This document shows positions 1,500 to 35,000 of a stretch of 51,849 nucleotides of DNA, piece by piece. How positions within the stretch are numbered: the first letter of the stretch is position 1; each line of letters begins with the position of its first letter. Location: assembly GCA_903879705.1 (NCBI GenBank), contig CAIRMO010000012.1, positions 1 to 51,849 on the forward strand, given 5' to 3'. The notes beneath the pieces were generated by a model. The model was not told the origin of the DNA and searched no databases. It saw only the letters and a list, made by a program, of their open reading frames with translations. The DNA comes from an uncultured Candidatus Competibacteraceae bacterium (GTDB lineage Bacteria > Pseudomonadota > Gammaproteobacteria > Competibacterales > Competibacteraceae). The position numbers and the translations under genes were made by a program.

Positions 1500-3436
1500 T
1501 TGTTCCGGGCACCTGATTCAACCTTTAACTCCGAACTCCGCGCTCGCCACACCCAATCCTCGATGCCGTTCTCTGGCTGATACTCGGCCACCGCTTCCTG
1601 CAACAACGCCCGCACCGCCGGATAATCAAACTGGTGTGCCGCCCGGTCCAACCGTTCCAGCACCTCCCGGATCACCGGCCAAGGCGGATGATCCTCGCGG
1701 GCGCGGCGGATCATCGGATGTTCGGTCGGCAGATCATCTAAACCGATCAACAATTCCTCGCGCAATTTCTCGCCGCTGCGCAATCCGGTAAAGCCAATTT
1801 CGACATCGCCTTCGGGATGTTCCGCATCGCACACCGTTAGTCCGGATAACCGAATCAGCCGTCGCGCCAAATCGAGAATCCGCACTGGTTCGCCCATGTC
1901 CAGCAGGAACAGATCACCGCCCTGAGCCATCGCGCTGGCCTGAATGACCAGTTGCGCCGCCTCCGGGATGGTCATGAAATAGCGTTCGACCTCCGGGTGC
2001 GTCACTGTGACCGGCCCGCCCTTGCGAATTTGCTCGCGAAACAGTGGCACGACCGACCCGGACGAGTCCAGCACATTGCCAAAGCGCACCATGCACAGCC
2101 GGGTGGGACTGCCCTCCCCGGCCAACCCCTGCAAAATCAGCTCCGCCAATCGTTTGGTCGCGCCCATGACGTTGGTGGGCCGTACCGCTTTGTCGCTGGA
2201 GATCAGCACGAAAGTTTCGACGCCAGCGGCGACCGCCGCCTCGGCAGCGTAGCGGGTGCCAAACACGTTGTTGCGAACGCCTTCAATCGGATTGTGTTCA
2301 ACGATAGGCACATGCTTATAGGCGGCAGCATGGTAAACGGTCTGCACCGCGAACCGCTCCATGACCACCTGCAAGCGCCGCCGGTGAACCACCGACCCCA
2401 ACAACGGGATCAGATCGACTGGCGGCGGGTAGCCCATGTTGGCGGTCATCGCGCCCAGTTCCTGCTCGATGGCGTACAGGGCGTATTCAGAACGCTCGAA
2501 CAGCACCAGCCGGCGTGGCCGCAGCGCCAGAATTTGCCGGCACAGTTCAGCGCCGATCGAACCGCCCGCGCCAGTCACCATCACGTTTTTGCCGCTCACC
2601 CGCGCCTGTAATAAGGCCGGATGGGGCTGGACCGAATCACGGCCCAGGATGTCCTCGACGCCGACCTCGCGGAATTCATCGATACGCCGGGCGCCGCTGG
2701 TCAATTCAGCCAAGGTTGGCAAGGCCAGCACTCGTACCGGCACCCCCGCCAGCGTCTCCAGAATTTCCCGGCGGCGGCGATGGGAGGCGGAAGGTAGCGC
2801 CAGCAGAATCAATCGGGCGTCGTAGCGGGTCGTCAAGCGAGAAAGTTTGAACGGGGCGCGGACTTTCAGCCCCAGCACCACACTGCCCCACAACTGCTTG
2901 TTGTCATCGACGAAAGCGACCGGTTCAAATTCAGTGCTGTAGCGTAGAGCGTGAACCAGTTGCGCTCCGGCCTCACCCGCGCCGTAAATCAGCACCGGCG
3001 TCCGGATCGTGGCCCGGCGAAACCGTCGCCGCAACACCCGGCGCAATAGCAACCGGCCACCGCCGACCAGCGCGATCAGCACCAGCCAGCCGATCAGCCA
3101 GGATGACCGTGGCACCAGCCCTTCCCGCAGAAACACCCACATCGCCATTAACAACAGAATGCCGGCGCTGACGCCCAGCACGATGGTGTACAGCAGGCTT
3201 TCGTCGGCATAGCGCAGAATAGGCCGGTACAAACCGATCAGGGTGAAGGTGGCGATCAGGGTGACGACGGCGAGCGGAAACAGCCAGAGGACTTCTTGCA
3301 GCATATCCGGCCACCACTCGCCGAGGCGAATGGCAAACGAGGCCCACACGGCAACCAGCACGGCTAGCGCGTCGCCGATCACCAGTAGCAGCCGACGGGC
3401 GGGTGGGGGGAGATTTAACAGGGATTCGAGCTTCAC
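1493..3436 (-). CDS. Membrane-bound nucleoside-diphosphate-sugar 4,6-dehydratase (WbpM/CapD/PglF family)
   Basis: Large SDR that makes 4-keto-6-deoxy sugar nucleotides, usually from UDP-GlcNAc, for O-antigen, capsule or glycoprotein sugars. About four N-terminal membrane segments (residues ~15-130) are followed by a CoA-binding-like Rossmann region (GAGEAGAQL near 155) and the catalytic Rossmann domain with TGAGGSIGAEL near 288. The family active-site stretch SSDKAVRPTNVMGATKR is present, with Met-Lys where a classical SDR has Tyr-Lys. An upstream ATG exists at 3472 inside the neighbouring gene, but GTG at 3436 makes a GTGA overlap with that gene's stop and gives a normal length (647 aa), so I prefer it. 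It is translationally coupled to the WecA-like transferase gene just upstream, the classic WbpL/WbpM pairing. Confidence 0.93.
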   Translation of the reverse strand: MKLESLLNLPPPARRLLLVIGDALAVLVAVWASFAIRLGEWWPDMLQEVLWLFPLAVVTLIATFTLIGLYRPILRYADESLLYTIVLGVSAGILLLMAMWVFLREGLVPRSSWLIGWLVLIALVGGGRLLLRRVLRRRFRRATIRTPVLIYGAGEAGAQLVHALRYSTEFEPVAFVDDNKQLWGSVVLGLKVRAPFKLSRLTTRYDARLILLALPSASHRRRREILETLAGVPVRVLALPTLAELTSGARRIDEFREVGVEDILGRDSVQPHPALLQARVSGKNVMVTGAGGSIGAELCRQILALRPRRLVLFERSEYALYAIEQELGAMTANMGYPPPVDLIPLLGSVVHRRRLQVVMERFAVQTVYHAAAYKHVPIVEHNPIEGVRNNVFGTRYAAEAAVAAGVETFVLISSDKAVRPTNVMGATKRLAELILQGLAGEGSPTRLCMVRFGNVLDSSGSVVPLFREQIRKGGPVTVTHPEVERYFMTIPEAAQLVIQASAMAQGGDLFLLDMGEPVRILDLARRLIRLSGLTVCDAEHPEGDVEIGFTGLRSGEKLREELLIGLDDLPTEHPMIRRAREDHPPWPVIREVLERLDRAAHQFDYPAVRALLQEAVAEYQPENGIEDWVWRARSSELKVESGARNNQ

Positions 3437-4461
3437 GGCGCGGATACTGGCACAGCGCGCTGTTCCAGCCAACCGACCGTCGCCGTTAGCAGCGCATAAA
3501 TCACGATCCAGCTACCGGCCAGCGCTGCTTGACCGACCGGTGGAAGTTGAACCGCCAGTAATGTTGAACCGGCACAGGCCAGCATCAGCGCGTATTCAGC
3601 CAGCACGGTGCGGCGGTGGCCCCAGCCGAGCAAGACCAGCCGCTGGTAATAATGGCTGCGGTGCGCCTCCCAGACTTTTTCGCCGCGCCACAGCCGCCGC
3701 AGCAGGGTCAATGTGGCGTCAACGCTGAAGGGCGAAAAGATCAGCAACGCCATCCAGAGCGGGAACAATCCCGCCTTGCTTCCCCACAGGCTACAGGCCG
3801 CCGCCAGAAAACCCAGAGTGGTCGAACCGGTATCGCCAAGGAAGATTTTGGCCGGCGGGAAGTTGTGAATCAGAAACCCGGCGCTCGCCGCCGCCACCGT
3901 CAGGCAGACTGCGGCGAACCCGGCATCGGCCCGCCCCAGCCAGGCCAGCGCGGCAAAGCCAATGACCGCCATGCCGCCAGCAAAGCCATCCATTCCGTCC
4001 ATGAAGTTGTAGAGGTTGATCATCCAGACGGTGAACAGGATGGTCAGGGAGATGGCGATCCCGGTGGGTAAGACGCAGGCAAAGCCGGGCAGGTCGAGGC
4101 GGTCTGGAGCAAAACCGGCGATCAACAGGCTGACAGCGGCCCAGAGATGAACTAGAATCCGCGACCTTGCGGTGATATCCGTACGATCATCTACGAATGA
4201 CACCACGGCCAGAGACGCCAAACCGGTCAGCAGGGAGATCAAGGTTCGGGACGGCAGCGTGCTGGTCTCCAGCGTGATCAAGGTCAGGCCAGCCAGTGTT
4301 CCCGCAATCATGGCTAAACCGCCGGTTCGGGGGATAGGACGCTGATGCAGGGAGCGAGCGTTTGGATGGTCAAGAATGTGTAGATGCGATACCGGGTTAG
4401 CCAAATACCGGCTAAAGAAGAATGCGCCAATAAAGGCTAATAGGCTACTGGATGCTGACAT
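3433..4461 (-). CDS. WecA/WbpL-type polyprenyl-phosphate HexNAc-1-phosphate transferase (GT4 MraY family)
   Basis: Integral membrane enzyme that loads a HexNAc-1-phosphate onto undecaprenyl phosphate, the first step of O-antigen or capsule repeat synthesis. It is 342 residues with about ten membrane segments. Family motifs visible are RPIPRTGG near 41-48, VSFVDDRTD near 87-95 (Asp pair 91-92), NLYNFMDGMDG near 149-159, IFLGDTGS near 206-213 and the HRSHYYQRL loop near 267. In minus orientation AAGGAAA lies about 7 nt before the ATG. The product feeds the divergent polysaccharide island. Sugar specificity (GlcNAc, QuiNAc or FucNAc) cannot be read from sequence, but pairing with a WbpM-type dehydratase favours a 6-deoxy-HexNAc derivative. 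Confidence 0.92.
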   Translation of the reverse strand: MSASSSLLAFIGAFFFSRYLANPVSHLHILDHPNARSLHQRPIPRTGGLAMIAGTLAGLTLITLETSTLPSRTLISLLTGLASLAVVSFVDDRTDITARSRILVHLWAAVSLLIAGFAPDRLDLPGFACVLPTGIAISLTILFTVWMINLYNFMDGMDGFAGGMAVIGFAALAWLGRADAGFAAVCLTVAAASAGFLIHNFPPAKIFLGDTGSTTLGFLAAACSLWGSKAGLFPLWMALLIFSPFSVDATLTLLRRLWRGEKVWEAHRSHYYQRLVLLGWGHRRTVLAEYALMLACAGSTLLAVQLPPVGQAALAGSWIVIYALLTATVGWLEQRAVPVSAP

Positions 4462-4517: not shown

Positions 4518-5285
4518 ATGCATAAAGCCCGGTACTTCGAGCTGGTTTTTTACAAGACTTATGCCGATCTTAGGGCTGAAGCTGCGCGCACCTATATCAG
4601 TTTTTTATGGTGGATTCTCGATCCATTAATTAATATGGTCGTTTTTTATTTTGTTTTTAAGGTTATTCTCAACCATGGCACTGAGAACTTTGTCAGCGTC
4701 TTGTTGGTTGGGCTGGTTTTTTGGAAATGGTTTACTAATTCAATCCAGCATGCCTTAAATAGCATTCCGATTCATTTGGGCCTTATTCAGCAAATCTATT
4801 TGCCCAAACTTTTGTTGCCGCTGATTACAATCCTGACGGATTTCATAAAATTCATGGTGGTGTTTTCCGTGCTGATTCTGCTGCTGCTACTGATCGGAAT
4901 AACCCCAAGTGTTGCTTGGATTAGCTTGCCGGTTTTATTTGCTCTACAGCTATTACTCGTTACAGGCGGTGGTTGCCTGGTTGCGGCGATTAATCCTTTT
5001 TTTCCGGATTTACGGATATTGACTGAACATGGTTTAACGCTATTAATGTTCTTGTCTGGAGTTTTTTTTGATGTTAGCGTTGTTCCAGAACCTTACCGGG
5101 TATTTTTTTTCGTCAATCCAATGGCGGTTATGATTGATGCCTTCAGGTTAGTCATTCTTGAAAATCGGTTACCGAACTGGTTTGCTCTTGGTTATGTTTT
5201 TGTCTTTGGCGCTATTATCCTGGCGGTAGCCCTGACTATGCTGGCGCGCTTCGATCGCGTCTATCCACGGCTGACGCTGGCATGA
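4518..5285 (+). CDS. wzm: ABC-2 type polysaccharide export permease (Wzm-like)
   Basis: Membrane half of an ABC exporter that moves lipid-linked polysaccharide across the inner membrane. It has 255 residues, about six hydrophobic segments, an amphipathic N-terminus and the ABC2_membrane pattern (SFLWWILDPLINMVVFYFVF near 28-47, NPMAVMIDAFR near 195-207). It is the first gene of the plus-strand island, divergent from the WecA-like gene across a 56-bp AT-rich gap that should hold both promoters, although I see no convincing -35/-10 pair. It overlaps the ATPase gene by 4 bp (ATGA). Base composition is clearly more AT-rich than the genes at 0-4.4 kb. KpsM/TagG-like naming would be equally acceptable. 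Confidence 0.9.
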   Translation: MHKARYFELVFYKTYADLRAEAARTYISFLWWILDPLINMVVFYFVFKVILNHGTENFVSVLLVGLVFWKWFTNSIQHALNSIPIHLGLIQQIYLPKLLLPLITILTDFIKFMVVFSVLILLLLLIGITPSVAWISLPVLFALQLLLVTGGGCLVAAINPFFPDLRILTEHGLTLLMFLSGVFFDVSVVPEPYRVFFFVNPMAVMIDAFRLVILENRLPNWFALGYVFVFGAIILAVALTMLARFDRVYPRLTLA

Positions 5286-6043
5286 ATGCTAACTTGATGT
5301 GTTCATCACCCATCCGATCCTTACATAATGTAGGGGTCTGTTATCAGCGTCGATCAGGGTTATTCCGACAGAGTCCTTTTTGGGCGCTGAATGATGTTTC
5401 CTTTGATCTGTTCAGGGGCGAAGTATTGGGGATCATCGGACGTAATGGTGCGGGAAAAACCACATTGCTGCAACTGCTCGCTGATATCATTAAACCCGAT
5501 CGGGGTGTGTTACAAACAAATGGGGCACAGGCTACCCTGCTTTCCTTACAAATTGGCTTCATTCCTAACTTGAGTGGCCGTGAAAATGCTATTATGAGTG
5601 GTTTACTGCTTGGATTGCGACGCAGCACTATTCAATCCCGCATGAAAGACATCATCGCCTTTTCAGAGTTAGAAGAGTTTATTGATCAACCGATTCGTCA
5701 ATACTCGACTGGAATGCGTGCTCGCCTAGGTTTTTCCGTAGCACTGCAATTAAATCCAGATATTTTCCTTATTGATGAGGTGATGGGTGTAGGTGATGCA
5801 AATTTTAAAAAAAAATCATCAGAAGCCATGCTTGAAAAATTTCACTCGGATCGAACCTTTGTTTTAGTTTCTCATGATTTATCGATGATTCGCCGGTTGT
5901 GTAGTCGGGTGGTTTGGATTGAACACGGCGCGACTCGAGATGAAGGAAATCCGGAAGCAGTGATTCGCGCCTATCAAGCCTGCTTGATCCCGCCCTCAAA
6001 TCCCTTGCCTCGTATACCCAAGGAAACTACAGGAAAACCCTGA
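5282..6043 (+). CDS. wzt: Polysaccharide ABC exporter ATP-binding protein (Wzt-like, short form)
   Basis: Cytoplasmic ATPase partner of the Wzm-like permease. Walker A is GRNGAGKTT near residues 54-62, the signature region is YSTGMRARLGFS near 141-152, Walker B is IFLIDEV near 161-167, and the switch histidine is in LVSHDLS near 196-202. At 253 residues it ends soon after the nucleotide-binding domain and lacks the C-terminal carbohydrate-binding domain of long Wzt proteins, so recognition of a terminal glycan modification is not expected to be built into it (inference). Its start overlaps wzm by 4 bp. Its stop (TGA 6041-6043) overlaps the next ATG by one base, so three genes are coupled. Confidence 0.92.
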   Translation: MNANLMCSSPIRSLHNVGVCYQRRSGLFRQSPFWALNDVSFDLFRGEVLGIIGRNGAGKTTLLQLLADIIKPDRGVLQTNGAQATLLSLQIGFIPNLSGRENAIMSGLLLGLRRSTIQSRMKDIIAFSELEEFIDQPIRQYSTGMRARLGFSVALQLNPDIFLIDEVMGVGDANFKKKSSEAMLEKFHSDRTFVLVSHDLSMIRRLCSRVVWIEHGATRDEGNPEAVIRAYQACLIPPSNPLPRIPKETTGKP

Positions 6044-9000
6044 TGCAAATCATCGTACTCGGTATGCACCGCTCTGGCACTTCAGCAGTAGCGCGCCTGA
6101 TTAACATGATGGGGGCCGATACTGGTCCGTCCCACTTAATCGGCGAACCGGCTGCTGACAATGAGAAAGGGTTCTGGGAACGCCAGGATGTCAGGGATCT
6201 GGACGATGCTTTATTGGAAACAGTGGGCTGTGCTTGGGACGATGTTACCTGCTTCGCTCAGGACAAACTTTTAAAAGTTGAGCATGCCGAACTGAGCATC
6301 CAAGCAAAGCGCATCATTTTCAACATGGATACTCATCGGCCTTGGGTGCTTAAAGAGCCGCGTCTGTGTCTAACTTTACCCTTCTGGCTCCCTTTTCTTG
6401 AAGTACCGGTTTGCGTTCTCCCCTCCCGTTCTCCGCTGGAAATCGCCAAGTCCTTGCAATCTCGCAATGGGTTTTCTTTGGTGTACGGCGTTGCCCTATG
6501 GGAAAAGTATACTGTCGAGGCTCTTCGCAGCTCTCAGAATCCTCCACGAATTATTGTTTCTTATTCAAGACTGATTAGTAATCCAATCGATACTGTACAT
6601 AGTCTATATCAAAATTTGTGTGAGTTTGACGTTCAGGGATTGCGGATGCCTTCTGAACGCGAGATTTTAGCTTTTGTGGAAAGCCGGCTTTATCATCAGC
6701 GTGAAGCCGTTCAAGATACTGAAGGTACTTTGAATGAGAGTCAGCGCCAACTAGCAAAAGCTGTGGAAGATGGTTCTGTTCTATCTTGGGGTAAAATTCC
6801 TGACCTGTCGGCAGGCGCTTCTGAAATTCTTGCTCAGAATTACCAGATGAATAGCGCACAACAAGAGATAGCCGAGACGCGGCGGATTTTAAAATCTGCC
6901 CAAGAGGAAACCCAGAATTTATCCCAGCAACTCGAAAACATTCGATGTGAATCCGTAGATGTGCGCCAATGCTTGGAAACGACTCTGGGTGAGGTAGCGG
7001 AACTACGCCAAGAACGGGATGCCGTCCGCCACGAGGTCATTGAACGTGACCAGCAGCTCCAGAAAAACAGAAGTGAATCTTTAGATCTGCGCCAGTGCTT
7101 GGAAACAGTACAGGGTGAAGCGATAGGATTGCGCCGGGATCGAGATTCAGCGATGGCTAAACAAAATACCGCTTTGGCTGAGCGTGATGCCGCCCGCAGC
7201 CAAGTTTTTGAGATCGACCAGCAGCTTGAACAAACCCAGATTGAAGCTGGAAAACTGCGTCAGGATCGGGATGTTGCTCGCACTCAAATCATTGGACTTA
7301 ACCAGCAGCTTGAACAAACCCAGATTGAAGCTGGAAAACTGCGTCAGGATCGGGATGCTGCTCGCACTCAAATCATTGGACTTAACCAGCAGCTTGAACA
7401 AACCCAGATTGAAGCTGGAAAACTGCATCGGCGCCTCTTAGTAGCTCAAAACGAAATAGAACATGTCCGTAATAGCCAGCAGTTATCTATCATGGTTAAA
7501 CAGAATGAAATTGAAACAGCTAATCAGCAGCTTAATGATATAAATTTGCAATTAACTCACTTGAATCAAGATATGGTAGCCAAAGATCAACAGTTGGTAT
7601 TTTTGTCTGGTGAACTAAAATTGTTAGAGGAGTGGCTAAAGCAAATTGAACAGAGTTTCATATCAACCCTGCATTCTTGGCGGTGGCGGGTAGGCCATAG
7701 CTCCGTGTCTCTAATAGAAAAATTGTTACTGCGACGGCGGGGGTTGCTGGGGGCCGATCATATTCAAAATTTGCTCCGGCAATTTCAGGACTGGTCTACC
7801 AAAGCTCGAAAGTGGGAGACAATGGTACGGCGTACGCATCTGCCGCTGCCTTCACTTGGCAGTGTTGCCCCTCTTGGCGAAGTCATGGCGTCGCCAGCGC
7901 CGACAACAGCTTGCTATGATTTGATCTGCTTTGCCAACATTGACTGGAATGCTCGCTATCAACGGCCGCAACAACTGGCTGTTCAGTTTTCTCGTCACGG
8001 CCATCGCGTATTTTATGTAGTAGCCTCGCGTTGCCTATCCCCCAATGATGCACAGGGTTTTCGAGCATCAGTAGTTGCCAACAACATCTATGAAGTGGAA
8101 TTGATGGCTCATGCAGTGCCGGATCGTTATTCTAATGTACTCGATGCCGCTAATACTGAGCTTTTTTTGCAATCATTAAGCCGCCTACGGGATGCCTTTG
8201 GTATAGTAGACGCTGTCTGTAATGTGCATTTGGCTTTCTGGACTCCACTCGTATTGCGTCTACGCCAATGTTGGGATTGGCGGGTCTTGTATGACTGCAT
8301 GGATGAGTGGGAGGATTTTCCCAATATAGGCAAGCCGTTGCTGGAAGCTGAAAAGGAGCTGGTTCAGCGAAGCGATGTAGTAACGGTCACCGCTGCGTTG
8401 CTGGAACAGAAGTGGCGTAACGACAACCCTCGTTGTCTCTTGGTACGCAACGGAGTTGATTTCGATTTTTTCCGCCAGCACTACCAGCCAACTCATATCT
8501 TGGGCGATATCAGCCATCCAGTAATCGGTTTTTATGGTGCGCTGGCCGAGTGGGTGAATCTGGGTCTACTCGCTAGCATGGCTAGAGCGCGTCCTAACTG
8601 GTCCCTCGTATTGCTGGGTGATGTTTTTGTTACAGATCTGGAAGGATTGGATGGTTTGCCCAACGTCCATTTATTGGGTCGCCGGCCCTACGAAGAAATG
8701 CCTCTTTATCTTTATCACTTCGATGTTTGTCTGGTGCCGTTTCGCATCAATCAAGTGACTCATGCAGTGGATCCAGTCAAATTTTATGAGTACATCAGCG
8801 CCGGTAAACCAGTCATTTCGGCGCCTCTTAAGGAATTGGAAATTTACAAGGATTATCTGTACTTTGCGGCCACACCCGATGCGTTTGTCGACCAAATTGA
8901 GCGGGCTTTGGCGGAAAACGACTTAAAATTGCAGCAACGACGTATTGATCTGGCCCGTGATAATGATTGGCGAAACCGTTATCAGGCTATGGCCCAAGCG

Positions 9001-9771
9001 ATTAGTGCTGTCTATAATCGAGTCAGCATCATCGTTGTCACTTATAAAAACATGGACATCAGCCAGTTATGTCTTGAGAAACTGTTAAGCAATACCACCT
9101 ACCCCAACTATGAAATTATCGTTGTGGATAACGATTCCAAGGATGGCACTGCTAACTACTTAAACTATATGCAGGAACGCTACGATAATATAAAAATTAT
9201 CGTCAACAATGAGAATCGTGGTTTTGCGGCGGCGAATAATCAGGGGCTTGCTATTGCGAGCGGTGATTACTTGGTGCTACTCAATAACGACACGGTACCT
9301 CCTCGTGGCTGGCTGGCCCCATTACTTAAACATTTACGGGATGCACAGCTTGGCTTGGTCGGGCCGGTCACCAACTTTGTTGGCAATGAAGCAAAGATCG
9401 ATGTATCCTATAATAATCTGGATGAGATGGAACATTTTGCGCTCCACCAAATGCGAACGCATGAAGGTAGAATATTCGACATTAAAGTTTTGGCAATGTT
9501 CTGCGTCGCAATGCGTCGGGACGTCTACGAGCGGGTAGGTCCATTGGATGAGAGTTTTGGTATTGGTATGTTTGAGGACGATGATTACAGTAACCGAATT
9601 CGACAACTTGGATATAGAGTTGTTTGTGCCGAGGATTCCTTCGTTCATCACTTTGGTCAGGCAGCATTTAAAAAACTGATAGAAACGGGTGAATATCACG
9701 AAATTTGGAAAAAAAACCAAGCTTATTACGAGCAAAAATGGGGGAAATGGAATCCTCACATTCATCGATAA
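6043..9771 (+). CDS. Giant fusion: sulfotransferase-like domain, coiled coil, GT4-type and GT2-type glycosyltransferases
   Basis: A 1242-residue protein with four visible parts. Residues ~1-225 are a sulfotransferase-family P-loop domain (VLGMHRSGTSAVARL near the N-terminus, the place where PAPS-binding enzymes have a 5'-phosphosulfate loop). Residues ~235-540 are a long Gln/Glu/Leu-rich coiled coil including 28-residue repeats. Residues ~620-985 resemble a GT-B glycosyltransferase (NARYQRPQQLA, then VDPVKFYEYISAGKPVIS). Residues ~993-1242 are a GT2 domain (VSIIVVTYKN, VVDNDSKDG, LLNNDTVPP, MFEDDDYSNRI). Such a protein could couple chain extension and sulfation, with the coiled coil acting as a spacer or oligomeriser, as in some bifunctional O-antigen polymerising enzymes. 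The domain calls are firm for GT2, good for GT4 and the P-loop. Substrates are unknown. Confidence 0.88.
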   Translation: MQIIVLGMHRSGTSAVARLINMMGADTGPSHLIGEPAADNEKGFWERQDVRDLDDALLETVGCAWDDVTCFAQDKLLKVEHAELSIQAKRIIFNMDTHRPWVLKEPRLCLTLPFWLPFLEVPVCVLPSRSPLEIAKSLQSRNGFSLVYGVALWEKYTVEALRSSQNPPRIIVSYSRLISNPIDTVHSLYQNLCEFDVQGLRMPSEREILAFVESRLYHQREAVQDTEGTLNESQRQLAKAVEDGSVLSWGKIPDLSAGASEILAQNYQMNSAQQEIAETRRILKSAQEETQNLSQQLENIRCESVDVRQCLETTLGEVAELRQERDAVRHEVIERDQQLQKNRSESLDLRQCLETVQGEAIGLRRDRDSAMAKQNTALAERDAARSQVFEIDQQLEQTQIEAGKLRQDRDVARTQIIGLNQQLEQTQIEAGKLRQDRDAARTQIIGLNQQLEQTQIEAGKLHRRLLVAQNEIEHVRNSQQLSIMVKQNEIETANQQLNDINLQLTHLNQDMVAKDQQLVFLSGELKLLEEWLKQIEQSFISTLHSWRWRVGHSSVSLIEKLLLRRRGLLGADHIQNLLRQFQDWSTKARKWETMVRRTHLPLPSLGSVAPLGEVMASPAPTTACYDLICFANIDWNARYQRPQQLAVQFSRHGHRVFYVVASRCLSPNDAQGFRASVVANNIYEVELMAHAVPDRYSNVLDAANTELFLQSLSRLRDAFGIVDAVCNVHLAFWTPLVLRLRQCWDWRVLYDCMDEWEDFPNIGKPLLEAEKELVQRSDVVTVTAALLEQKWRNDNPRCLLVRNGVDFDFFRQHYQPTHILGDISHPVIGFYGALAEWVNLGLLASMARARPNWSLVLLGDVFVTDLEGLDGLPNVHLLGRRPYEEMPLYLYHFDVCLVPFRINQVTHAVDPVKFYEYISAGKPVISAPLKELEIYKDYLYFAATPDAFVDQIERALAENDLKLQQRRIDLARDNDWRNRYQAMAQAISAVYNRVSIIVVTYKNMDISQLCLEKLLSNTTYPNYEIIVVDNDSKDGTANYLNYMQERYDNIKIIVNNENRGFAAANNQGLAIASGDYLVLLNNDTVPPRGWLAPLLKHLRDAQLGLVGPVTNFVGNEAKIDVSYNNLDEMEHFALHQMRTHEGRIFDIKVLAMFCVAMRRDVYERVGPLDESFGIGMFEDDDYSNRIRQLGYRVVCAEDSFVHHFGQAAFKKLIETGEYHEIWKKNQAYYEQKWGKWNPHIHR
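7219..7426 (+). repeat. 84-bp in-frame tandem repeat (2.5 copies) in the coiled-coil region
   Basis: Units begin at 7219, 7303 and 7387 with exact 84-bp spacing; the third is partial. The unit encodes 28 residues, i.e. four heptads, containing QQLEQTQIEAGKL. Units 2 and 3 are nearly identical in DNA, which points to recent duplication and to possible length variation of the coiled-coil rod without frame loss. Confidence 0.9.
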
Positions 9772-9812: not shown

Positions 9813-10757
9813 ATGGATGATGATGATGATAAAAAGAAGATTGTTGACTATTGGTCGGAAAATATAGCAGGCTCCAATCCTTTCTCCTCTGATGTTTATT
9901 GGCTGGCTATACCGGCTGTTCAGGAGCGTTATCAAAAAAAGGCTTGCGCTAATAAGCCTTATTCAAGTTGGGTAGAATACTGTGTCAAGGAATTTTTAGG
10001 AGTTGCTGTCCCTGTACAGCGAATGCTGAGTATTGGTTGTGGTACGGGTAGCTTGGAGCGTCACTTATATAGTTTGGATGTTTTTCAGCAATGCGATGCT
10101 GTTGATATCTCTCTCAAAGCTGTTGAAATTGCCAAACAGGAAGCAGATAAGCTTAATATAACTTCCATAAGTTATTCGGCATATGACATCGAAGCTATGG
10201 AGTTAGTAACAGACCGGTATGATGTTGTTTGGTTTAATGGTTCGCTACATCATATTAAGGAACTCGAATTCGTTTTGAATCGAGTAAAACAAGCGCTAAA
10301 ACCCAATGGTTGGCTATTTTTTAATGAATATGTCGGTTTTAATCGATTTGCTTTTTCAAGTCGTCAGCGTGAGATTTTTCAACATGCGTTTTACCTGATT
10401 CCATCGCGATACCGGCGATCTTTTCAACATCAACCTACTACAAATGCTCATCAAACTATTCCACCTCTCCCTGATCCCAGTGAAGTTGCGCATGTAGATC
10501 CATCTGAAGCGGTGCGATCGCAAGATATTTTATCAGTTGTTAATAGTCTGTTTGAGATCGTAAAAATTAATAGCTGTGGTGGTTCATTGCTGCAATTTTT
10601 ACTGAGCGGAATTGCCGGCAACTTTAAGCAGTCTGACCCCCAATCAATGTTAATTCTGAATATGTTATTTGCAATAGAAGACGCACTGATTGAATCTGGA
10701 GTTATTCAGAGTGATTTTGTTGTTGTGGCGGCACGGCAATATTCACTGGTTTCTTGA
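9813..10757 (+). CDS. Class I SAM-dependent methyltransferase
   Basis: Cytoplasmic methyltransferase of 314 residues, probably acting on a sugar or glycan intermediate of the island. SAM motif I is MLSIGCGTGSLERHL near residues 71-85; a post-motif region has VDISLKAVEIAKQEA, and motif II/III is seen as YDVVWFNGSLHHIKE and ALKPNGWLFFNEYVG. An SD-like GGAG lies 8 nt before the ATG. The N-terminus carries an odd run of five Asp. The C-terminal end (SDFVVVAARQ) reappears as a degraded copy at 11732-11836, so this gene or a close relative was duplicated around the next gene. The methyl acceptor is not known. Confidence 0.85.
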   Translation: MDDDDDKKKIVDYWSENIAGSNPFSSDVYWLAIPAVQERYQKKACANKPYSSWVEYCVKEFLGVAVPVQRMLSIGCGTGSLERHLYSLDVFQQCDAVDISLKAVEIAKQEADKLNITSISYSAYDIEAMELVTDRYDVVWFNGSLHHIKELEFVLNRVKQALKPNGWLFFNEYVGFNRFAFSSRQREIFQHAFYLIPSRYRRSFQHQPTTNAHQTIPPLPDPSEVAHVDPSEAVRSQDILSVVNSLFEIVKINSCGGSLLQFLLSGIAGNFKQSDPQSMLILNMLFAIEDALIESGVIQSDFVVVAARQYSLVS

Positions 10758-10824: not shown

Positions 10825-11730
10825 ATGTCCGATTTAATTAAAAATGCAACTCCACTGTTTGTTATTGGTGTGCCTCGCAGCGGCACCACAATGCTGGCAC
10901 GGCTTTTAAGTAATCACCCTAATATTGTACAAACTTATGAAACCTCAGCTTTTCTTTTATTCGATAACATAATAAAAAATGCTGAGCGTGGTTCCAAAGC
11001 AGGCATTCTATATGGCAAAGAGTACCAAACTCTCTGGTCAAAGCATCTGGCTAGTGTGGCAAAAGACGTTATTGAGTCTTTCTATGAAAAAATCTTTGAA
11101 ACAGAAGGTCGTGATGATGTGCGTTACTGGGGAGATAAACATCCTCATCACAATGCTTGTTTGCCTTTTATAGAATGGCTTTACCCTAATGCCCTATATA
11201 TTTATATCGTCAGAGATCCAAGAGATGTTGCCTGTTCTATTGCTGAAAATCGAAAATTAAGTTTTGAACAGGCGTTTGATATATGGGGGAAAATTTCTGA
11301 AGACTATGAAAAATTCCAAAGTTCTGTCAGTGGCGATCGTTTGTGCCGTGTTCAATATGAACATATCGTTAAAAATTATGAAGAAGGTATCAGTCAGATT
11401 ATGAACTGGCTGGATATTGAATTTAGTCCTGCCGTTAGAGAACATGTCAGGTGTAAACAAGGACAAGATTTCCATAATCCTAAAAAACAGGACACTATTA
11501 ATTTTGCTGAAAAATCTATGGGGAGATGGAAAGATCGAATAACTCAAGAAGAAAATAACTATGCGTTATCCCATGCAGTCGATTATATGATTAAATATAA
11601 CTATTCAATCGATACTTTGACTCTTCCTGCAGAGTTAAATCCACCAGCTTTGGAGTTAGATTTGCGGGACAAGTTAGAGCCTGCTAAAGGATGGCTGGAA
11701 AATATCTTTCGAAAACACAGTACTAAGTAG
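10825..11730 (+). CDS. Sulfotransferase family protein
   Basis: 301 residues with the two PAPS-binding signatures of the family: the 5'-phosphosulfate loop VIGVPRSGTTMLARLL near residues 13-28 and the 3'-phosphate-binding stretch IYIVRDPRDVACS near 130-142. It also has the family YEHIVKNYEEG region near 173. It probably transfers sulfate from PAPS to a glycan hydroxyl in the cytoplasm before export. It lies between a methyltransferase and wecB in the same direction. This is the second sulfotransferase-type domain in the island, after the N-terminus of the giant fusion. The PAPS supply genes are not in the window. Confidence 0.87.
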   Translation: MSDLIKNATPLFVIGVPRSGTTMLARLLSNHPNIVQTYETSAFLLFDNIIKNAERGSKAGILYGKEYQTLWSKHLASVAKDVIESFYEKIFETEGRDDVRYWGDKHPHHNACLPFIEWLYPNALYIYIVRDPRDVACSIAENRKLSFEQAFDIWGKISEDYEKFQSSVSGDRLCRVQYEHIVKNYEEGISQIMNWLDIEFSPAVREHVRCKQGQDFHNPKKQDTINFAEKSMGRWKDRITQEENNYALSHAVDYMIKYNYSIDTLTLPAELNPPALELDLRDKLEPAKGWLENIFRKHSTK

Positions 11731-11875: not shown

Positions 11876-12979
11876 ATGGCAAAAAAAATAGTTTGCGTAG
11901 TCGGCACCCGCCCTGAAGCCATCAAGATGGCGCCTGTTATTTTGGCTTTGAAAAAAGAGTCTTGGATCGAAGTGCGGGTGCTGGCTACCGCCCAACACCG
12001 ACACATGCTGGATCAAGTGTTGGCCGCTTTCGCCGTCGAACCAGACGTTGACCTTGACATCATGCGCCCCAATCAGGCACTTACCACGCTCACCGCACGG
12101 CTGCTACTCGACCTTGATGATGTATTGCAGGCGGAAAAACCGGATGTCGTGTTAGCGCAGGGAGATACCACGACAGTTATGACGGTTGCTTTGGCCTGTT
12201 TCTATCATCGTATTTCATTCGGTCATGTCGAAGCTGGCTTGCGTACTGGCGATATAAACAATCCTTTCCCAGAGGAAATGAACCGCACGGTAGCCGGACG
12301 ACTTTCGCGGTGGCATTTTGCACCGACGCAAAGTTCCCGTTATAACCTGTTGCGTGAAGGCGTATCGGGTGCTGATATTTATGTCACCGGCAACACAGTG
12401 ATCGATGCGCTAATGACGGTAGCGAAGCGTGATCTCGATATTGGGATTGATCTGGATTCTTCAAAACGCTTGATTTTAGTTACGGCGCATCGCCGGGAAA
12501 ATTTCGGCGAACCCTTTCGCCAAGTGTGCCGTGCCATCCGTGCTTTAGCTGATGCCTATCCGGATATCGAGATTCTTTACCCGGTTCATCCTAATCCAAA
12601 TGTTACCGAGATGGCTCATGCCTTGTTGGCCGATCATCCGCGTATCCGGCTTTGCGCTCCACTGGATTATCTGCCGTTTGTAGCGGCAATGAAGCGGGCT
12701 TATTTGATTCTGAGCGACTCCGGCGGAGTGCAGGAAGAGGCACCTGCATTAGGAAAGCCAGTACTAGTTTTACGTCGGGAAACAGAGCGGCCAGAAGCAG
12801 TGACCGAAGGCGTGGTGAAATTAGTGGGACCTGATTACGACGCGATCATGATGGAATCGATGCGGTTACTGGATGACCCGGCCTACTACGCATCGATGGC
12901 GCGTGGAGTCTCTCCTTACGGCGATGGTCATGCCTCTGAACGAATTGTCGCTATTTTACAGAAAGATCTGACTGACTAG
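11876..12979 (+). CDS. wecB: UDP-N-acetylglucosamine 2-epimerase, non-hydrolysing
   Basis: Interconverts UDP-GlcNAc and UDP-ManNAc, supplying ManNAc-type precursors. It is 367 residues, the usual size. Conserved family stretches are VVGTRPEAIKMAPV at the N-terminus, LAQGDTTTV near 96, GHVEAGLRTGD near 116, PFPEEMNR near 129, VTAHRRENFGEP near 204 and the C-terminal SGGVQEEAPALGKPVLVLR with TERPEA. These carry the catalytic acidic residues and His known from E. coli WecB. The gene is followed after 3 bp by a glycosyltransferase with a TTG start, so they are probably co-transcribed. Confidence 0.95.
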   Translation: MAKKIVCVVGTRPEAIKMAPVILALKKESWIEVRVLATAQHRHMLDQVLAAFAVEPDVDLDIMRPNQALTTLTARLLLDLDDVLQAEKPDVVLAQGDTTTVMTVALACFYHRISFGHVEAGLRTGDINNPFPEEMNRTVAGRLSRWHFAPTQSSRYNLLREGVSGADIYVTGNTVIDALMTVAKRDLDIGIDLDSSKRLILVTAHRRENFGEPFRQVCRAIRALADAYPDIEILYPVHPNPNVTEMAHALLADHPRIRLCAPLDYLPFVAAMKRAYLILSDSGGVQEEAPALGKPVLVLRRETERPEAVTEGVVKLVGPDYDAIMMESMRLLDDPAYYASMARGVSPYGDGHASERIVAILQKDLTD

Positions 12980-23962: not shown

Positions 23963-25624
23963 ATGATTTCTCCCCGACTGGGTGAGTTGTTACTCGCCAA
24001 GGAACTGATTAACGCCGCCGATCTGGATAAGGCGCTCCTGCTGCAACAGCAAATCGGCGGACGGCTGGGCGCATTACTGATCCGGATCGGTGCGCTCTCC
24101 GAAGATGGCCTGCTGCCAGTGCTGGCCGAACAGTTGGAGATGCCGCTGCTCGATGCCGACGAACTGCTCACCCTCGGCAGCGCCTGGCTGGAACAGACCG
24201 GCGTCGAGCTGAACTGGTGGATCGATCAGGAAGTGCTGGCCTGGGAAACCGGCTCGGGCGCGATCCGTTGCGTGGCGCGCGATCCCCTCAATCCGGCTCT
24301 CAGCGAGGCCATTGAACGGATTTTTCCGGGGCGGGCGCTGGAATGGCGGCTGGCACGCAGTCACGATCTGGAGCGGGCGCTGGATCTATTGAGCCGCAGC
24401 AACGCCGCGTTACTGTCCGGCGACGCCACCGTCGCCCACCTGCGCGAACTGGCCGAAGAAGCGCCGGTGATCGAGTTCGTCAACAACCTGCTGTCGCAAG
24501 CCTTTGAAGCCCGCGCCTCGGATATCCACATCGAACCCGAAGAAACCGTCTGCATGGTGCGCTACCGCATCGATGGCATTCTCTACACCCGCTTTAACCT
24601 GCCCCGGGATCGCTTCAACGCCATCGCCTCCCGGATCAAGCTGATTTCCGGCATGGATATCGCCGAGCGCCGTTTGCCCCAGGATGGGCGACTGGGTGCC
24701 CGGGTGAGTGGCTCGGAAGTGGATATCCGGGTCTCGGCGCTACCCGGAGTGCATGGCGAATCCATCGTCATGCGGCTGTTGCCCAAGGAACGGCAGGATT
24801 ACCGGCTGGACCGGCTCGGTCTGGAAGACGATCATCTGGAGTTGCTATCCCGGCTGATTCAGGAACCGCACGGCATTCTGCTGGTGACCGGCCCGACCGG
24901 TTCCGGCAAGTCGACCACGCTCTACGCCGCGCTGGAGGCGGTCAATGACCGCAAGCGCAAGGTCATCACCGTCGAGGATCCGGTGGAATATCAACTGGCC
25001 GGGATTACCCAGATTCAGGCCCACGCTGAAATCGGCTACACCTTCGCCCGGGCTTTGCGGGCGATCCTGCGTCAGGACCCCGACATCATCATGATCGGGG
25101 AAATCCGCGATCAGGAAACCGCCGAAATCGCAGTCCAGGCTTCGCTGACCGGTCATTTGGTGCTGTCAACCCTGCACACCAACGACGCCCTGAGCGCGTT
25201 CACCCGACTGATTGACATGGGCGTCGAGCCGTTCCTGGTCGCCACTCCAATCCGGGCGGTGATGGCGCAACGATTGGTGCGCCGGCTGTGTCCTGCCTGT
25301 GCCGCCCCGATGGCTGCGCCCGCCTTCAGCGCCGAGATTCAGCAGGCGCTGCCGCCCGCCTGGCGGGATGCCGCACCGCAATGGCGACAAGCGGTCGGCT
25401 GTCCGGCCTGCCAGGGCACCGGCTACCGTGGCCGGGTCGGGATTTATGAACTGGTAGAAGTCAGCCCGCCATTGCAAACCCTGATTTTGAAGGCCGCCCC
25501 TCTTGAGGAATTGCGGGAACTGACCCGCCAGCAGGGTTGGCGCACCTTGCGCGGCGATGGCTTTCTCAAAGCCTGGCAAGGTCGCACCAGCCTCGATGAA
25601 GTGTTGCGGGTCACCGCGCAATAA
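23963..25624 (+). CDS. gspE: Type II secretion ATPase GspE
   Basis: Cytoplasmic hexameric ATPase powering pseudopilus assembly. It is 553 residues. The N-terminal MshEN/N1E domain (residues ~1-140, RLGELLLAKELI and GRLGALLIRIGAL) is followed by the N2E/C-terminal ATPase core. Walker A is GPTGSGKSTT near 311-320, the Asp box region is ITVEDPVEYQL, and Walker B is DIIMIGEIRDQET near 375-387. A zinc-binding tetracysteine module (CPACAAPM ... CPACQGTGYRGRVGIYE) near 446-495 is typical of GspE/PilB. It is the first gene of a ten-gene cluster in the order E-F-G-H-I-J-K-L-M-C/N. Confidence 0.96.
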   Translation: MISPRLGELLLAKELINAADLDKALLLQQQIGGRLGALLIRIGALSEDGLLPVLAEQLEMPLLDADELLTLGSAWLEQTGVELNWWIDQEVLAWETGSGAIRCVARDPLNPALSEAIERIFPGRALEWRLARSHDLERALDLLSRSNAALLSGDATVAHLRELAEEAPVIEFVNNLLSQAFEARASDIHIEPEETVCMVRYRIDGILYTRFNLPRDRFNAIASRIKLISGMDIAERRLPQDGRLGARVSGSEVDIRVSALPGVHGESIVMRLLPKERQDYRLDRLGLEDDHLELLSRLIQEPHGILLVTGPTGSGKSTTLYAALEAVNDRKRKVITVEDPVEYQLAGITQIQAHAEIGYTFARALRAILRQDPDIIMIGEIRDQETAEIAVQASLTGHLVLSTLHTNDALSAFTRLIDMGVEPFLVATPIRAVMAQRLVRRLCPACAAPMAAPAFSAEIQQALPPAWRDAAPQWRQAVGCPACQGTGYRGRVGIYELVEVSPPLQTLILKAAPLEELRELTRQQGWRTLRGDGFLKAWQGRTSLDEVLRVTAQ

Positions 25625-32063: not shown

Positions 32064-35000
32064 TCAAGCGACTTCCGTTTCCGCCTCCAGCTTCCGCGCC
32101 AGCGTGAAGCATTCTTCAGCTTCTTTGCCATAGCCGCCCAGCGCCTGCCATACCGTTCCTAACTGATGAAGAGTTTTGGCATCGCGCGGACGCAGTTCTA
32201 GCGCCTTGCGATAACTCTCGATGGCCTCATCCACCCGGCCCGCGCCGCGCAACGCATTGCCCAGGTTGTAGTGGCCTTCGGCGAAAAACGGCTCAAATTC
32301 CAGCACCCGTTTGTAGTGTTTCGCGGCTGAGGTGAACCGGCTTTGCGCCTCCAGCGCGGCGCCCATGTTGTTAAGCGCCTCAACATAATCGGGTTTCAGC
32401 GCCAGGGCGCGGCGGCAACTGGCCTCGGCCTGATCCGGTTTGCCCAGCATCAGGCGGGCAATCGCCAAATTGTTATGGAACTGCGGATGATCGCCAAAGC
32501 ATTCCACCGCTCGTGCCAGATACTCCTCAGCCTTGGCGAAATCGCCGCGCTGGTAATAAATGCCACCCAGCCGGTTCCAGGCATCGGCATGTTCAGGCAC
32601 CGCCTCGACCACGGCTTGATACACCTCTTCTGCTGCCTCCAGTTCCCCCACTCGCAGCCACTCATAGCCGCGTTGCAACGCCTGGGTCAGCGTCATCGGC
32701 ATGCCCCTAATCATCAGTTTGATCGCGGGCGGGGCCAGGGTCGGGGCGGGGGCGCCTTGCGCAATGGCGGCGACCGCGGCGATGGCTTCGACCGCTTCCG
32801 AACCCATCGAATCGGAATCCTGCCCGGTCTCAGCCGCTTCAGGGGCAGGGAGGCGCTGCGTAACCGGCACTTGCAACGCCGCTTCGTCGGGCGGTGGAAC
32901 GATGAGCGGGGTGCGCTGGGCAAAATCGAAGTCCGGGTCGGCGCACCATAGCTGCCACATCGCCCGGTAGGCATTTTCCAGGGTGCGGGTGAAACGCAGG
33001 GCGTCCATGATCGGCGCTACCGCCACTTGCGCCCGTAACCGCCGCCGCAAGTCCGCCAGCCCCGGTAAATCGTTGGCCAGCCGGACGGCGATGGCGATGT
33101 ACTCCTCCGGGGTCTCCGCCACCAGATCACTCAATCCGGAGTTATTGAGCAGGCTGGCGCCGATTCGTCCCAGAAACCGGTCGCCGGCCAGCGCCACCAC
33201 CGGCACTCCCATCCACAAGGTGTCGCAGGTGGTGGTAGCGCCGTTGTAGGGGAAGGGATCAAGCCCGATATCGACCTGGTGATACCACAACAAATGCTCG
33301 TGCTGGCCGGCGTCGGCACCGGAAAACAGCAGGCGATCGGCGGGAATGCCATGACTGGCGAACTGCTCGCGCACCTTGGCCTGGTGCTTGAGATTGGCGA
33401 AATCGCCGTTTTTGAGCAGCAGGCGGGAATTCGGGATCGCCTCCAGTAACTGCGCCCACAGGGCGATCACGTTCGGGGTGACCTTGGCGAAGTTGTTGAA
33501 GCAGCCGAAGGTGAGCGGGCGACCGTCCAGCGCTGGCAGTTCGCTGACCTCCGGGCTTTCCTGGGGAGGCTGGAAGGCCATGAACACCCCCGGCAACCGG
33601 CACAACGCCTCGCTGTGAATCGCCTCCATGCCCGGCGGATGGGTGTAGTGATCGACGATGCAGTAATCCATGCCGTTGAGGCCGGTGGTGCTGGGATAGC
33701 CCAGCCAGGTGGCCTGCACCGGGGCCGGTTTGCGGGCGAACACCAGCAGGCGGTTGTAGGCGGTGACGCCAGCCAGATCGACCAGGATGTCGATTTGATC
33801 CTCGCGGATCAGGTCTGCGACTTCGTCATCAGTCAGTTTGGCCACTTCCCGCCAGTGATCGGCAGCGTCCTTGAACCGGGCAGTGACGGCATCCTGCATC
33901 TCCAGGGTGCAGGAGGAATAACAGAAAATTTCAAAAGGGCCATGGTCATGGCGGGCCAGCACCGGCTCCAGGAAGAACGCCACCGAGTGCTTGCGAAAAT
34001 CGCCGGAGACATAACCGATCCGCAGCCGACGTTCTGGATCCCGATCGTTAGGGTGGGGTCGCCATTGCGCTTTCAGTGGGGTTTCGAACCGTTCGGCAAA
34101 CCGGCGATGTTCTTCGTACAGGTCTTGCGGAGTTTTGCCGGGCGCATAGTTCATCGAGAACAACATGCCGGCGTGGCCACCGGGATTATCGGGGATCAAG
34201 TTCAGCGCCCGTTGGTAGTATTCCAGTGCTTGCTCATGATCGCCGTGGCGCTGGTAGAACCCGGCCATCCCGGTCAACCCCCGGTTGTCGTTGGGGTTAA
34301 GTTCCAGCACCCGCTCAAAACAGGCCATGGCGTCGTCGTGGCGACGTTGCTTGAGTAGCAGGTCGCCCAATTGATAATGGGCATCGGCGTAGTCGGGGGC
34401 CAGGGCGATGGCCTGGCGATAGCGGGGTTCGGCTTCTTCGCCTTGGCCCCGATCCATCAGGGCGTTGCCCAGTTGGCAATGGGCCTCGGCAAGGGTCGGT
34501 TGCAAATTGAGCGCCTTGCAGAAGTTGGCGATGGCGTCCCAGGGCTGGCCGTTAGCAAACAGCACTTTGCCCAGACTGCAATAATCGTCGGCCGCGTCTG
34601 GACACACCTCCACCAGGCGCTGGAAGTGGGGAATGGCGTCGGCGTAGCGTTGCCGGGTGGCCAACAGAATCCCCAGATTTTTCAGGGCGTCGGCGTAGTC
34701 TGGGGTCAGCTCCAGCGCTCGCTTAAGGTTGGCTTCGGCTTCATCCAGTTTGCCCTGGGCTTGTTGCACCCCGGCCAGATTGTTGTAGTGCAGGGCGTTT
34801 TCTTCCAGCGCCAAACTGCGTTCCAGGTAATGTTCGACGTCGGTGAGTTCGCCGCGCTGATAATGCACCGCGCCGATCAGGTTGAGGGCGGCCAGATGGT
34901 CGGGCAGCAGCTCCAGCACCGCCCGACTGATCTCGGCAGCGGCGTCGAGTTGCCCAGCCTGATAGGCACGCTGGGCTTCGTCCAGCGCCCGGTCGGCCTG

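Follow-up and report, generated by a model that had tools for sequence, protein, structure and literature searches.

A sulfotransferase, coiled coil, GT4 and GT2 in one polypeptide beside Wzm/Wzt: a candidate capping polymerase in Competibacteraceae

The chain-ending groups given as proven in excerpts of the literature are methyl, methylphosphate and Kdo, and pyruvate is a terminal group in Klebsiella O1b. ORF6 of Klebsiella O7 is a proven terminator that carries a methyltransferase, a kinase with the catalytic residue D441, a coil and glycosyltransferases (GTs), and Wzt carries a carbohydrate-binding domain in all the examples of terminated O-polysaccharides given in the excerpted text (PMC11231755). 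In A. salmonicida, a separate small sulfotransferase-domain protein adjoins wbbB; according to the excerpt of that report, the O-chain showed its authors no residue of this kind (PMC4483657), which calls for caution in deducing sulfate from a gene.

Here we describe a gene in which a sulfotransferase (STF) is itself part of such a chain. It lies in the window, the whole stretch of 51,849 nucleotides from an uncultured Candidatus Competibacteraceae bacterium that was analysed. We consider that its single-chain product may elongate, measure and terminate, by a sulfate cap, a polysaccharide that leaves the cell through Wzm/Wzt, acting as polymerase, ruler and terminator at once, and assign this reading a probability of roughly 0.57.

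A four-part polypeptide behind the export genes

The open reading frame is real and has the layout that the first-pass annotation had read from it, with an ATG start and with STF, coil, GT4 and GT2 in one chain, as confirmed by Pfam, AF2 and the heptad score. The features of the gene and its cluster are as follows.

3433..4461, − strand: WecA/MraY-type sugar-phosphate transferase, likely the initiating enzyme (PF00953)
4518..5285, + strand: Wzm-like ABC-2 permease (PF01061)
5282..6043, + strand: Wzt-like ATPase, 253 aa, without C-terminal carbohydrate-binding domain (PF00005; no Wzt_C match; alignment)
6043..9771, + strand: whole gene, STF + coiled coil + GT4 + GT2, 1242 aa
6043..6762, + strand: PAPS sulfotransferase domain (aa 1-240), which may be the chain-capping module (Pfam, AF2, Foldseek, invariant residues)
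6061..6084, + strand: GMHRSGTS, aa 7-14; G7, H9, R10, G12, T13 and S14 invariant in 44/44 rows
6178..6183, + strand: E46-R47, invariant in 44/44 rows
6427..6453, + strand: R129-SPLEIAK-S137; R129 and S137 invariant in 44/44 rows
6802..7662, + strand: coiled-coil rod, aa 254-540 (heptad score against shuffles; composition rule)
7217..7426, + strand: 84-bp (28-aa, four-heptad) tandem repeat in the rod, 2.5 copies, 99% matches (TRF)
7663..7902, + strand: segment after the rod, SWRW at aa 545; may be a membrane-proximal linker
7906..8997, + strand: GT4 domain, about aa 622-985 (Pfam PF13692; alignment)
9016..9687, + strand: GT2 domain, about aa 992-1215 (Pfam PF00535; PDB sequence matches)
9813..10757, + strand: class I methyltransferase; L028 and L029 have it in the same place (74-76% to that of the window)
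10825..11730, + strand: second sulfotransferase, free-standing (PF13469, E 1.1e-30)
11876..12979, + strand: UDP-GlcNAc 2-epimerase (PF02350), conserved in L028, L029 and L040

The gene directly follows Wzm and Wzt, and the 1-bp overlap claimed for it was confirmed, since the Wzt stop TGA (6041-6043) shares one base with the ATG (6043-6045). Both GT domains score above the Pfam cut-offs: Glyco_trans_1_4 matches aa 826-957 with 38.4 bits (cut-off 27), and Glycos_transf_2 matches aa 995-1165 with 102.4 bits; the GT2 domain has the acidic motifs NND at 1081 and EDDD at 1178. Neither Pfam nor alignment gave a Wzt_C match in the 253-aa Wzt, and the Wzt proteins of the window's near relatives are also short and without a carbohydrate-binding domain. 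The second sulfotransferase of the cluster could account for any sulfation.

The Sulfotransfer_3 match of the window protein (aa 3-191, E 0.0079, 16.9 bits) lies below the 27-bit cut-off, as do those of L031 (26.8), L034 (24.9) and L071 (22.9), and the homologues L029 (29.7), L033 (31.3) and L065 of Lysobacter soli (35.8) lie above it. Structure prediction, the check suggested for the PAPS-type P-loop domain, gave a confident sulfotransferase fold: the AF2 model has a pLDDT of 91.1, sulfotransferases fill Foldseek ranks 1-17, and human TPST1 matches with Z 16.2. The PAPS-binding residues are retained, with motifs invariant across the 44 rows of alignment A3 (the window, 41 of the 80 loci described below, L034 and L035). 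We take GMHRSGTS to be the 5'-phosphosulfate loop and R129-SPLEIAK-S137 the 3'-phosphate motif, and E46-R47 is a candidate catalytic base. The fold and the residue invariance rule out a chance Pfam match. Since kinase-like folds rank below sulfotransferases in Foldseek, a P-loop kinase is also ruled out.

In the mechanism that we propose, the C-terminal GT4 and GT2 would extend a lipid-linked chain close to the membrane, and a ~43-nm coiled coil would carry the STF at its distal end. A chain long enough to reach the STF would be sulfated with PAPS at its non-reducing end, growth would stop, and the neighbouring Wzm/Wzt ABC transporter would export the polysaccharide. The cap module would be exchangeable, being either a sulfotransferase or a methyltransferase-kinase, and a second polymerase lineage would have no such module in its chain. 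We infer the sulfation of the glycan, the terminal position of the sulfate, the stop signal and the use of rod length as a ruler.

Cap modules and homologous loci

The sister genomes G022 (locus L028) and G014 (locus L029) have an identical gene order around a coil-GT4-GT2 gene, with identities of 76% for Wzm, 83% for Wzt, 80% for the methyltransferase and 78% for WecB. The coil-GT4-GT2 parts are 72% identical from aa 253 of the L029 protein and aa 576 of the L028 protein onward, and the GT parts have about 60% identity to the window GTs. Upstream of these residues, no BLAST match was found between the two proteins; up to the coil border, the N-terminal module is an STF in L029 and a methyltransferase plus a kinase-like domain in L028, in which D461, N466 and D479 are invariant. 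In this single genome pair, compared by sequence, the cap module looks like an exchangeable part on a homologous polymerase. Since these transporters have no cap-reading domain, they may tolerate such an exchange. The window Wzm and Wzt differ in type from their counterparts in L028 and L029 (23-24% and 45% identity). Relatives of the L028 methyltransferase-kinase module lie directly after a Wzt with Wzt_C in two of eight fetched loci (L140 and L142), and the L160 protein matches only the methyltransferase part of the module (query 98-207).

A GT4-GT2 pair of the window type was found in only 3/39 genomes of the family and 3/369 of the class. In G024 and G015, a related GT2-GT2 polymerase without STF or coil in its chain directly follows Wzt, and the cap module is therefore dispensable there. 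G024 also encodes an STF-coil-GT protein of another subgroup ~8 kb from this polymerase, which could act in trans. The first-pass annotation had suggested a possible polymerase or terminator with a rod that measures the chain, by analogy with chain-length regulators like WbdD. This proposal is supported in part, by the STF across the coil from two GTs, the position after Wzm/Wzt and the methyltransferase-kinase homologue in L028, but the window Wzt lacks the C-terminal cap-binding domain and there are related polymerases that have no cap or coil.

Homologous STF loci were taken as the best 80 of 122, and 79 remained because L082 has no usable ORF. Wzt lies directly upstream of 13/72 STF genes and of 9/288 other ORFs from the same loci (p 3e-5), a comparison in which some loci are close relatives and the control ORFs, picked mechanically, may not all be genuine, so that the control rate could be too low. 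All five STF+coil proteins scanned from the Xanthomonadaceae genera Lysobacter, Luteimonas and Pseudoxanthomonas (586-689 aa) are without a GT match, and a Wzt-like gene is present in five of the six loci of this type (L098 counted; the GT scan covered the other five). A Wzt with Wzt_C adjoins STF-coil-GT in L069 and L077. Extensions of Xanthomonadaceae Wzt proteins were modelled in search of a hidden carbohydrate-binding domain; four scanned extensions gave no Wzt_C match at E 10, and the model from the 5-row alignment A5 (pLDDT 74.6) best matches the TarL beta domain (Z 7.5, 98 residues, 4.1 Å).

For 55 of the 79 STF loci, the fetched flank showed no Wzt, so not all STF homologues need serve ABC export. 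This observation is in line with an alternative in which the STF decorates internal residues or each repeat during growth, the coil merely tethers the enzymes, and length is set by the transporter and polymerase kinetics, as in Wzm/Wzt systems without a carbohydrate-binding module. The absence of a cap-reading domain from the window Wzt and the existence of bacterial sulfated exopolysaccharides, such as synechan (excerpt of PMC8205485), also fit. However, the module that takes the place of the STF at this site belongs to a class with demonstrated action at chain ends (excerpt of PMC11231755), and the architecture of terminators recurs in the GT-less STF+coil proteins that have a Wzt-like gene in their locus. 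We regard this alternative as unlikely and retain terminal capping as the preferred reading.

The coiled-coil rod and linked APS kinase genes

The coil of ~300 residues noted at first pass corresponds to a rod of ~287 residues (aa 254-540) without proline, whose heptad z of 9.4 is reached by 0/500 shuffles; the STF, GT4 and GT2 parts have z of 1.0, -0.3 and 0.3. The rod would span ~42.6 nm if it is one continuous helix. Its length across orthologues is 97 residues in L043, 263 in L040 (Thiocystis minor) and 287 in the window, and the rod repeats of the window and L040 arose from different units. Repeats were surveyed in 86 genes, namely the window gene, those of the 79 loci and six further Competibacteraceae genes (among them L028, which has no STF), with some ORFs ending at a contig edge and rod boundaries set by the composition rule. 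The rod-confined tandem repeats are in frame, and their period is a multiple of 21 bp in 24/32, as in 3/6 arrays outside the main rod. Since arrays of low percent match may merely reflect similar heptads, those with ≥90% matches are given separately: 11 of these 14 lie in the main rod, and for seven of the 11 the period is divisible by 21 bp.

The wide variation in rod length (97 to 287 residues), with no known phenotype, would also suit a coil that acts as an oligomerising scaffold, its length without effect on the chain, beneath a real sulfate cap. An excerpt of a 2026 capsule-typing paper (PMC13171606) already notes, for E. coli group 3 capsules, that putative methyltransferase genes vary in the length of their coil. 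On the other hand, in-frame repeats that are mostly heptad multiples and mostly rod-confined fit selection on a continuous rod, and an excerpt of PMC11231755 describes the coils of E. coli O9 and Klebsiella O12 as established molecular rulers. A mere scaffold seems rather improbable to us, and analogy with these systems together with the repeat patterns suggests that the rod may serve as a ruler.

APS kinase was found in 5/5 Competibacteraceae genomes tested, including the window genome. An APS kinase-like gene is present in 7/80 loci (BLAST, E 1e-10), of which L092, L102, L105 and L107 may be related rather than independent; in L086, the only one of the seven checked with Pfam, it precedes the STF-coil gene by 18 bp. 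That the N-terminal domain is catalytically dead or repurposed, for example for chain binding only, would suit the window's Pfam score under the gathering cut-off, but is very improbable given PAPS motifs that do not vary across the 44 rows, several homologues above the cut-off and others linked to APS kinase genes.

Meaning and comparison with described systems

A wider proposition, which we put forward tentatively and at somewhat under even odds, is that sulfate joins the caps that terminate ABC-exported polysaccharides of bacteria, acting through a widespread sulfotransferase-ruler family. In Competibacteraceae, caps would be swapped or lost on homologous polymerases since they go unread by the transporter, rods would drift by duplicating units of 7 to 36 residues, and end chemistry and chain length would be freely evolvable. 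A sulfate cap would extend the range of chain-ending chemistries, and nature has, in the cap exchange, performed an experiment in which cap, ruler, polymerase and export can be told apart. Among the literature matches listed, none describes a sulfate terminator; the terminator census that Mann, Kimber and Whitfield published in Glycobiology in 2019 and the WbdD ruler and WbbB papers fall outside that scope. The priority of the prediction is thus uncertain, and we do not claim its absence from print.

Competibacteraceae are a family of sludge bacteria. In the granular sludge matrix, sulfated glycoconjugates are common, yet BLAST found few sulfotransferases in the abundant genera, as stated in an excerpt of PMC10483923. 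Distant fused sulfotransferases like that of the window might belong to this missing set.

The window STF has the fold and PAPS motifs of the PAPS sulfotransferases (Sulfotransfer_3; TPST, NDST and 3-OST folds), but is fused to a coil and GTs and has ~8-17% identity to the structures compared. Of the features of coiled-coil terminators (WbdD, WbbB and Klebsiella O7 ORF6), the N-terminal group-transferring module, the long coil and the Wzm/Wzt location are present in the window, and the cap-binding carbohydrate module on Wzt, present in L069 and L077, is missing. As in Klebsiella O1/O2 export with its relaxed transporter (excerpt of PMC10629545), length regulation would be uncoupled from cap-reading export; the window nevertheless has a terminator-like module. 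WbbB of Klebsiella O12 likewise joins polymerase and terminator in a single polypeptide, but terminates with Kdo by a glycosyltransferase. In WbdD of E. coli O9a and Klebsiella O3, a coil also separates the cap enzyme from polymerization, a layout seen again in the STF+coil proteins of Lysobacter and its relatives; that system differs in its methyl-phosphate cap, its separate polymerase WbdA and a Wzt with a cap-binding domain. ORF6 of Klebsiella pneumoniae O7 shares with the window an N-terminal cap enzyme, a coiled coil and two C-terminal GT modules in one chain with ABC export. In place of its methyltransferase-kinase and two GT2 modules, the window has a sulfotransferase and a GT4-GT2 polymerase, and an O7-type methyltransferase-kinase cap is also carried by the G022 polymerase, which is homologous to that of the window.

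Architecture and fold of the sulfotransferase protein

The gene at 6043-9771 (+) is an uninterrupted open reading frame of 1242 aa whose ATG shares one base with the stop codon of Wzt, in agreement with the four-part single chain and 1-base overlap described in the first-pass annotation. Its parts, all on the plus strand, are as follows.

aa 1-240: sulfotransferase domain (STF)
aa 254-540: rod, a coiled coil
aa 545: SWRW, in a short segment following the rod
about aa 622-985: GT4 domain
about aa 992-1215: GT2 domain

Both glycosyltransferase domains score above the Pfam cut-off, and a Sulfotransfer_3 match at aa 3-191 lies under the threshold. The earlier assignment of a coiled coil is borne out, since the rod contains no proline and its heptad score is far above those of shuffled sequences, whereas the scores of the STF, GT4, and GT2 parts are not. 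At aa 900-917 (8740-8793), the first Glu of the GT4 EX7E motif is replaced by Ala, likewise in L028 and L029 (the loci of the compared genomes G022 and G014), and the activity of this GT4 subgroup is putative.

Structure prediction, proposed in the first-pass annotation, gave an AF2 model of the STF with a pLDDT of 91.1 (44 rows). Sulfotransferases fill Foldseek ranks 1-17 in the PDB, and VIA-align matches the model with TPST1 (Z 16.2, 203 residues, 3.6 Å), NDST1 (Z 12.1), and a 3-OST (Z 11.9). PDB matches by sequence profile only were weak, the best being a mycobacterial sulfotransferase (E 0.011). Loss of the PAPS-binding residues, named beforehand as evidence against this assignment, was not seen: Gly7, His9, Arg10, Gly12, Thr13, and Ser14 of the 5′-phosphosulfate loop are kept in 44/44 rows. 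Lys104, Pro106, Arg107, Arg129, and Ser137, as well as Asn40, Lys42, Gly43, Trp45, Glu46, and Arg47, are also invariant in all 44 rows. APS kinase is present in the window's genome (3.6 Mb) and in 4/4 relatives tested, and an APS kinase-like gene lies within 7 of the 80 fetched STF loci. In L086 (6386-9205), where Pfam confirms its identity, it shares the strand of the STF-coil gene and precedes it by 18 bp; it is directly downstream and convergent in L092, L102, L105, and L107, and farther off in L099 and L119. Given the fold, the invariant motifs, and the APS kinases in genomes and loci, PAPS is the likely substrate of the predicted sulfotransferase domain.

Distribution, gene neighbourhood, and rod repeats

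A scan of genome contigs yielded 122 STF-domain relatives, of which the best 80 were kept. Among these, Wzt lies immediately upstream of 13/72 STF genes with enough flank versus 9/288 of the remaining ORFs in these loci (p 3e-5). Counting any position, 24/79 loci have a Wzt, and in the other 55 it was not seen in the fetched flank. Thiocystis minor DSM 178 encodes a full-length orthologue (62% overall identity), with Wzm/Wzt genes just upstream on the opposite strand. STF+coil proteins of 586-689 aa occur in Lysobacter, Luteimonas, and Pseudoxanthomonas species (Xanthomonadaceae); none of the five scanned (all but L098) shows a GT domain, and a Wzt-like gene is found in 5/6 of their loci (L065, L081, L093, L098, and L111, not L071). 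The window also encodes a 1189-aa TPR protein with a Glyco_transf_41 (O-GlcNAc-transferase-like) domain (32064-35633, minus strand), a PilB-like type II/IV secretion ATPase (23963-25624), and a secretin (37950-40109).

The rods of orthologues span 97 to 287 residues. Tandem repeats of 84 bp, with differing units, are found in the rods of the window and the Thiocystis minor locus, and L029 has a 21-bp repeat. In 86 genes surveyed, 32/38 tandem arrays fall in the rod, which makes up 14,102/84,011 residues. Since their periods are multiples of 3 in 31/32 and of 21 bp in 24/32 (3/6 outside the rod are also multiples of 21 bp), rod length shifts by frame-keeping, mostly heptad-keeping steps. An unbroken rod being important would predict such a pattern, which is nevertheless no proof of a ruler.

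Exchange of candidate caps and polymerases

In L028, the gene in the same place after Wzt encodes 1376 aa comprising a methyltransferase, a kinase-like domain, a short coil, GT4, and GT2, while L029 encodes STF, coil, GT4, and GT2 in 1057 aa. Their neighbours are 76% (Wzm), 83% (Wzt), 80% (next methyltransferase), and 78% (WecB) identical, and the large proteins share 72% identity from aa 576 of L028 and aa 253 of L029 through to their C-termini, while BLAST finds nothing in common ahead of these positions. As judged from the sequences, the border between cap and coil is the exchange point. This methyltransferase-kinase/STF exchange is a single case. The GT4-GT2 part of the window is 59-60% identical to both counterparts, and its downstream methyltransferase (74-76%) and WecB (74-83%) resemble both loci, while its Wzm and Wzt differ in type (23-24% and 45% identity). 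Window-type GT4-GT2 occurs in 3/39 family and 3/369 class genomes (E 1e-60); the third class match, in G339, begins at a contig end, so that any cap region would lie outside the contig. A second, free-standing sulfotransferase (10825-11730; Sulfotransfer_3, E 1e-30) follows the methyltransferase in the window; in neither L028 nor L029 do the corresponding neighbours enclose a listed ORF of at least 120 aa.

In the L028 module, Asp461, Asn466, Asp479, Glu481, and Trp482 are invariant across 9 aligned rows. According to PMC11231755, Klebsiella O7 ORF6, with the same kind of module and the catalytic Asp441, was shown to add the terminal methylphosphate. Two of eight fetched relatives of the module (L140 and L142) directly follow Wzt genes with Wzt_C, the cap-reading domain; Wzt was not seen in the fetched stretches of the other six. 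Since the methyltransferase-kinase proteins of L145 and L146 (570-578 aa) lie near Wzx-type flippase-like genes (judged by eye), such modules may serve other export routes too. Both module types occur on a single contig (G057:C354; L027 and L141): an STF relative in an open frame of 310 aa and, at a distance of about 16 kb, a methyltransferase-kinase protein.

The converse exchange also holds at the sequence level, one cap type being joined to several polymerases: in Competibacteraceae, the STF is fused to GT4-GT2, GT2-GT4, GT2-GT2, and GT2-GT2-GT4. In a second polymerase lineage, three genomes (G010, G023, and G028) have STF-coil-GT2-GT2, whereas in G024 and G015 the gene directly after Wzt encodes a GT2-GT2 relative of 62-63% identity whose chain has neither STF nor coil. 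G024 encodes an STF-coil-GT protein of a different subgroup (L039) about 8 kb off on the opposite strand, which could work in trans; in G015, the window protein gave no match at E 1e-20. STF-coil-GT genes near Wzt in G021 (L032 7618-12352, the same as L073) and G025 (L036 8536-11713) are split over at least two frames, possibly by frameshift or decay, or else by assembly error.

Proposed mechanism and comparison with known terminators

The mechanism is based on the observed anatomy, fold, motifs, gene order, and one exchange. In the most likely reading, GT4 and GT2 would lengthen a lipid-linked chain close to the membrane, and the STF at the far end of the rod would sulfate the non-reducing end once the chain arrives there. 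Sulfation would stop chain growth, and Wzm/Wzt would then export the chain. We infer the acceptor, the end position of the sulfate, the stop signal, and the ruler function.

The window protein is proposed to work like WbdD, WbbB, and Klebsiella O7 ORF6, known coiled-coil chain terminators. The main texts of PMC11231755 and PMC10629545 contain no word beginning with "sulf", and a 2019 Glycobiology census may already list sulfotransferase terminators. In known capped systems, a carbohydrate-binding module lets Wzt read the cap (PMC11231755), whereas the Wzt of the window, tested for this domain, lacks it. Short Wzt proteins (232-253 aa) are found in the window, L028 (judged by length alone), L029, and L031, and a Wzt with Wzt_C adjoins STF-coil-GT in L069 and L077. 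The Wzt of the window cannot read a cap by such a module, which fits the cap exchange, since PMC10629545 argues that end chemistry is restricted from changing by cap reading but may change where the transporter is relaxed. The WbdD-like terminator suggested in the first-pass annotation is kept as a proposal for the manner of working, and since the cap-binding domain of Wzt is absent, the window system is classed as a variant, rather than a member, of the capped coiled-coil terminators.
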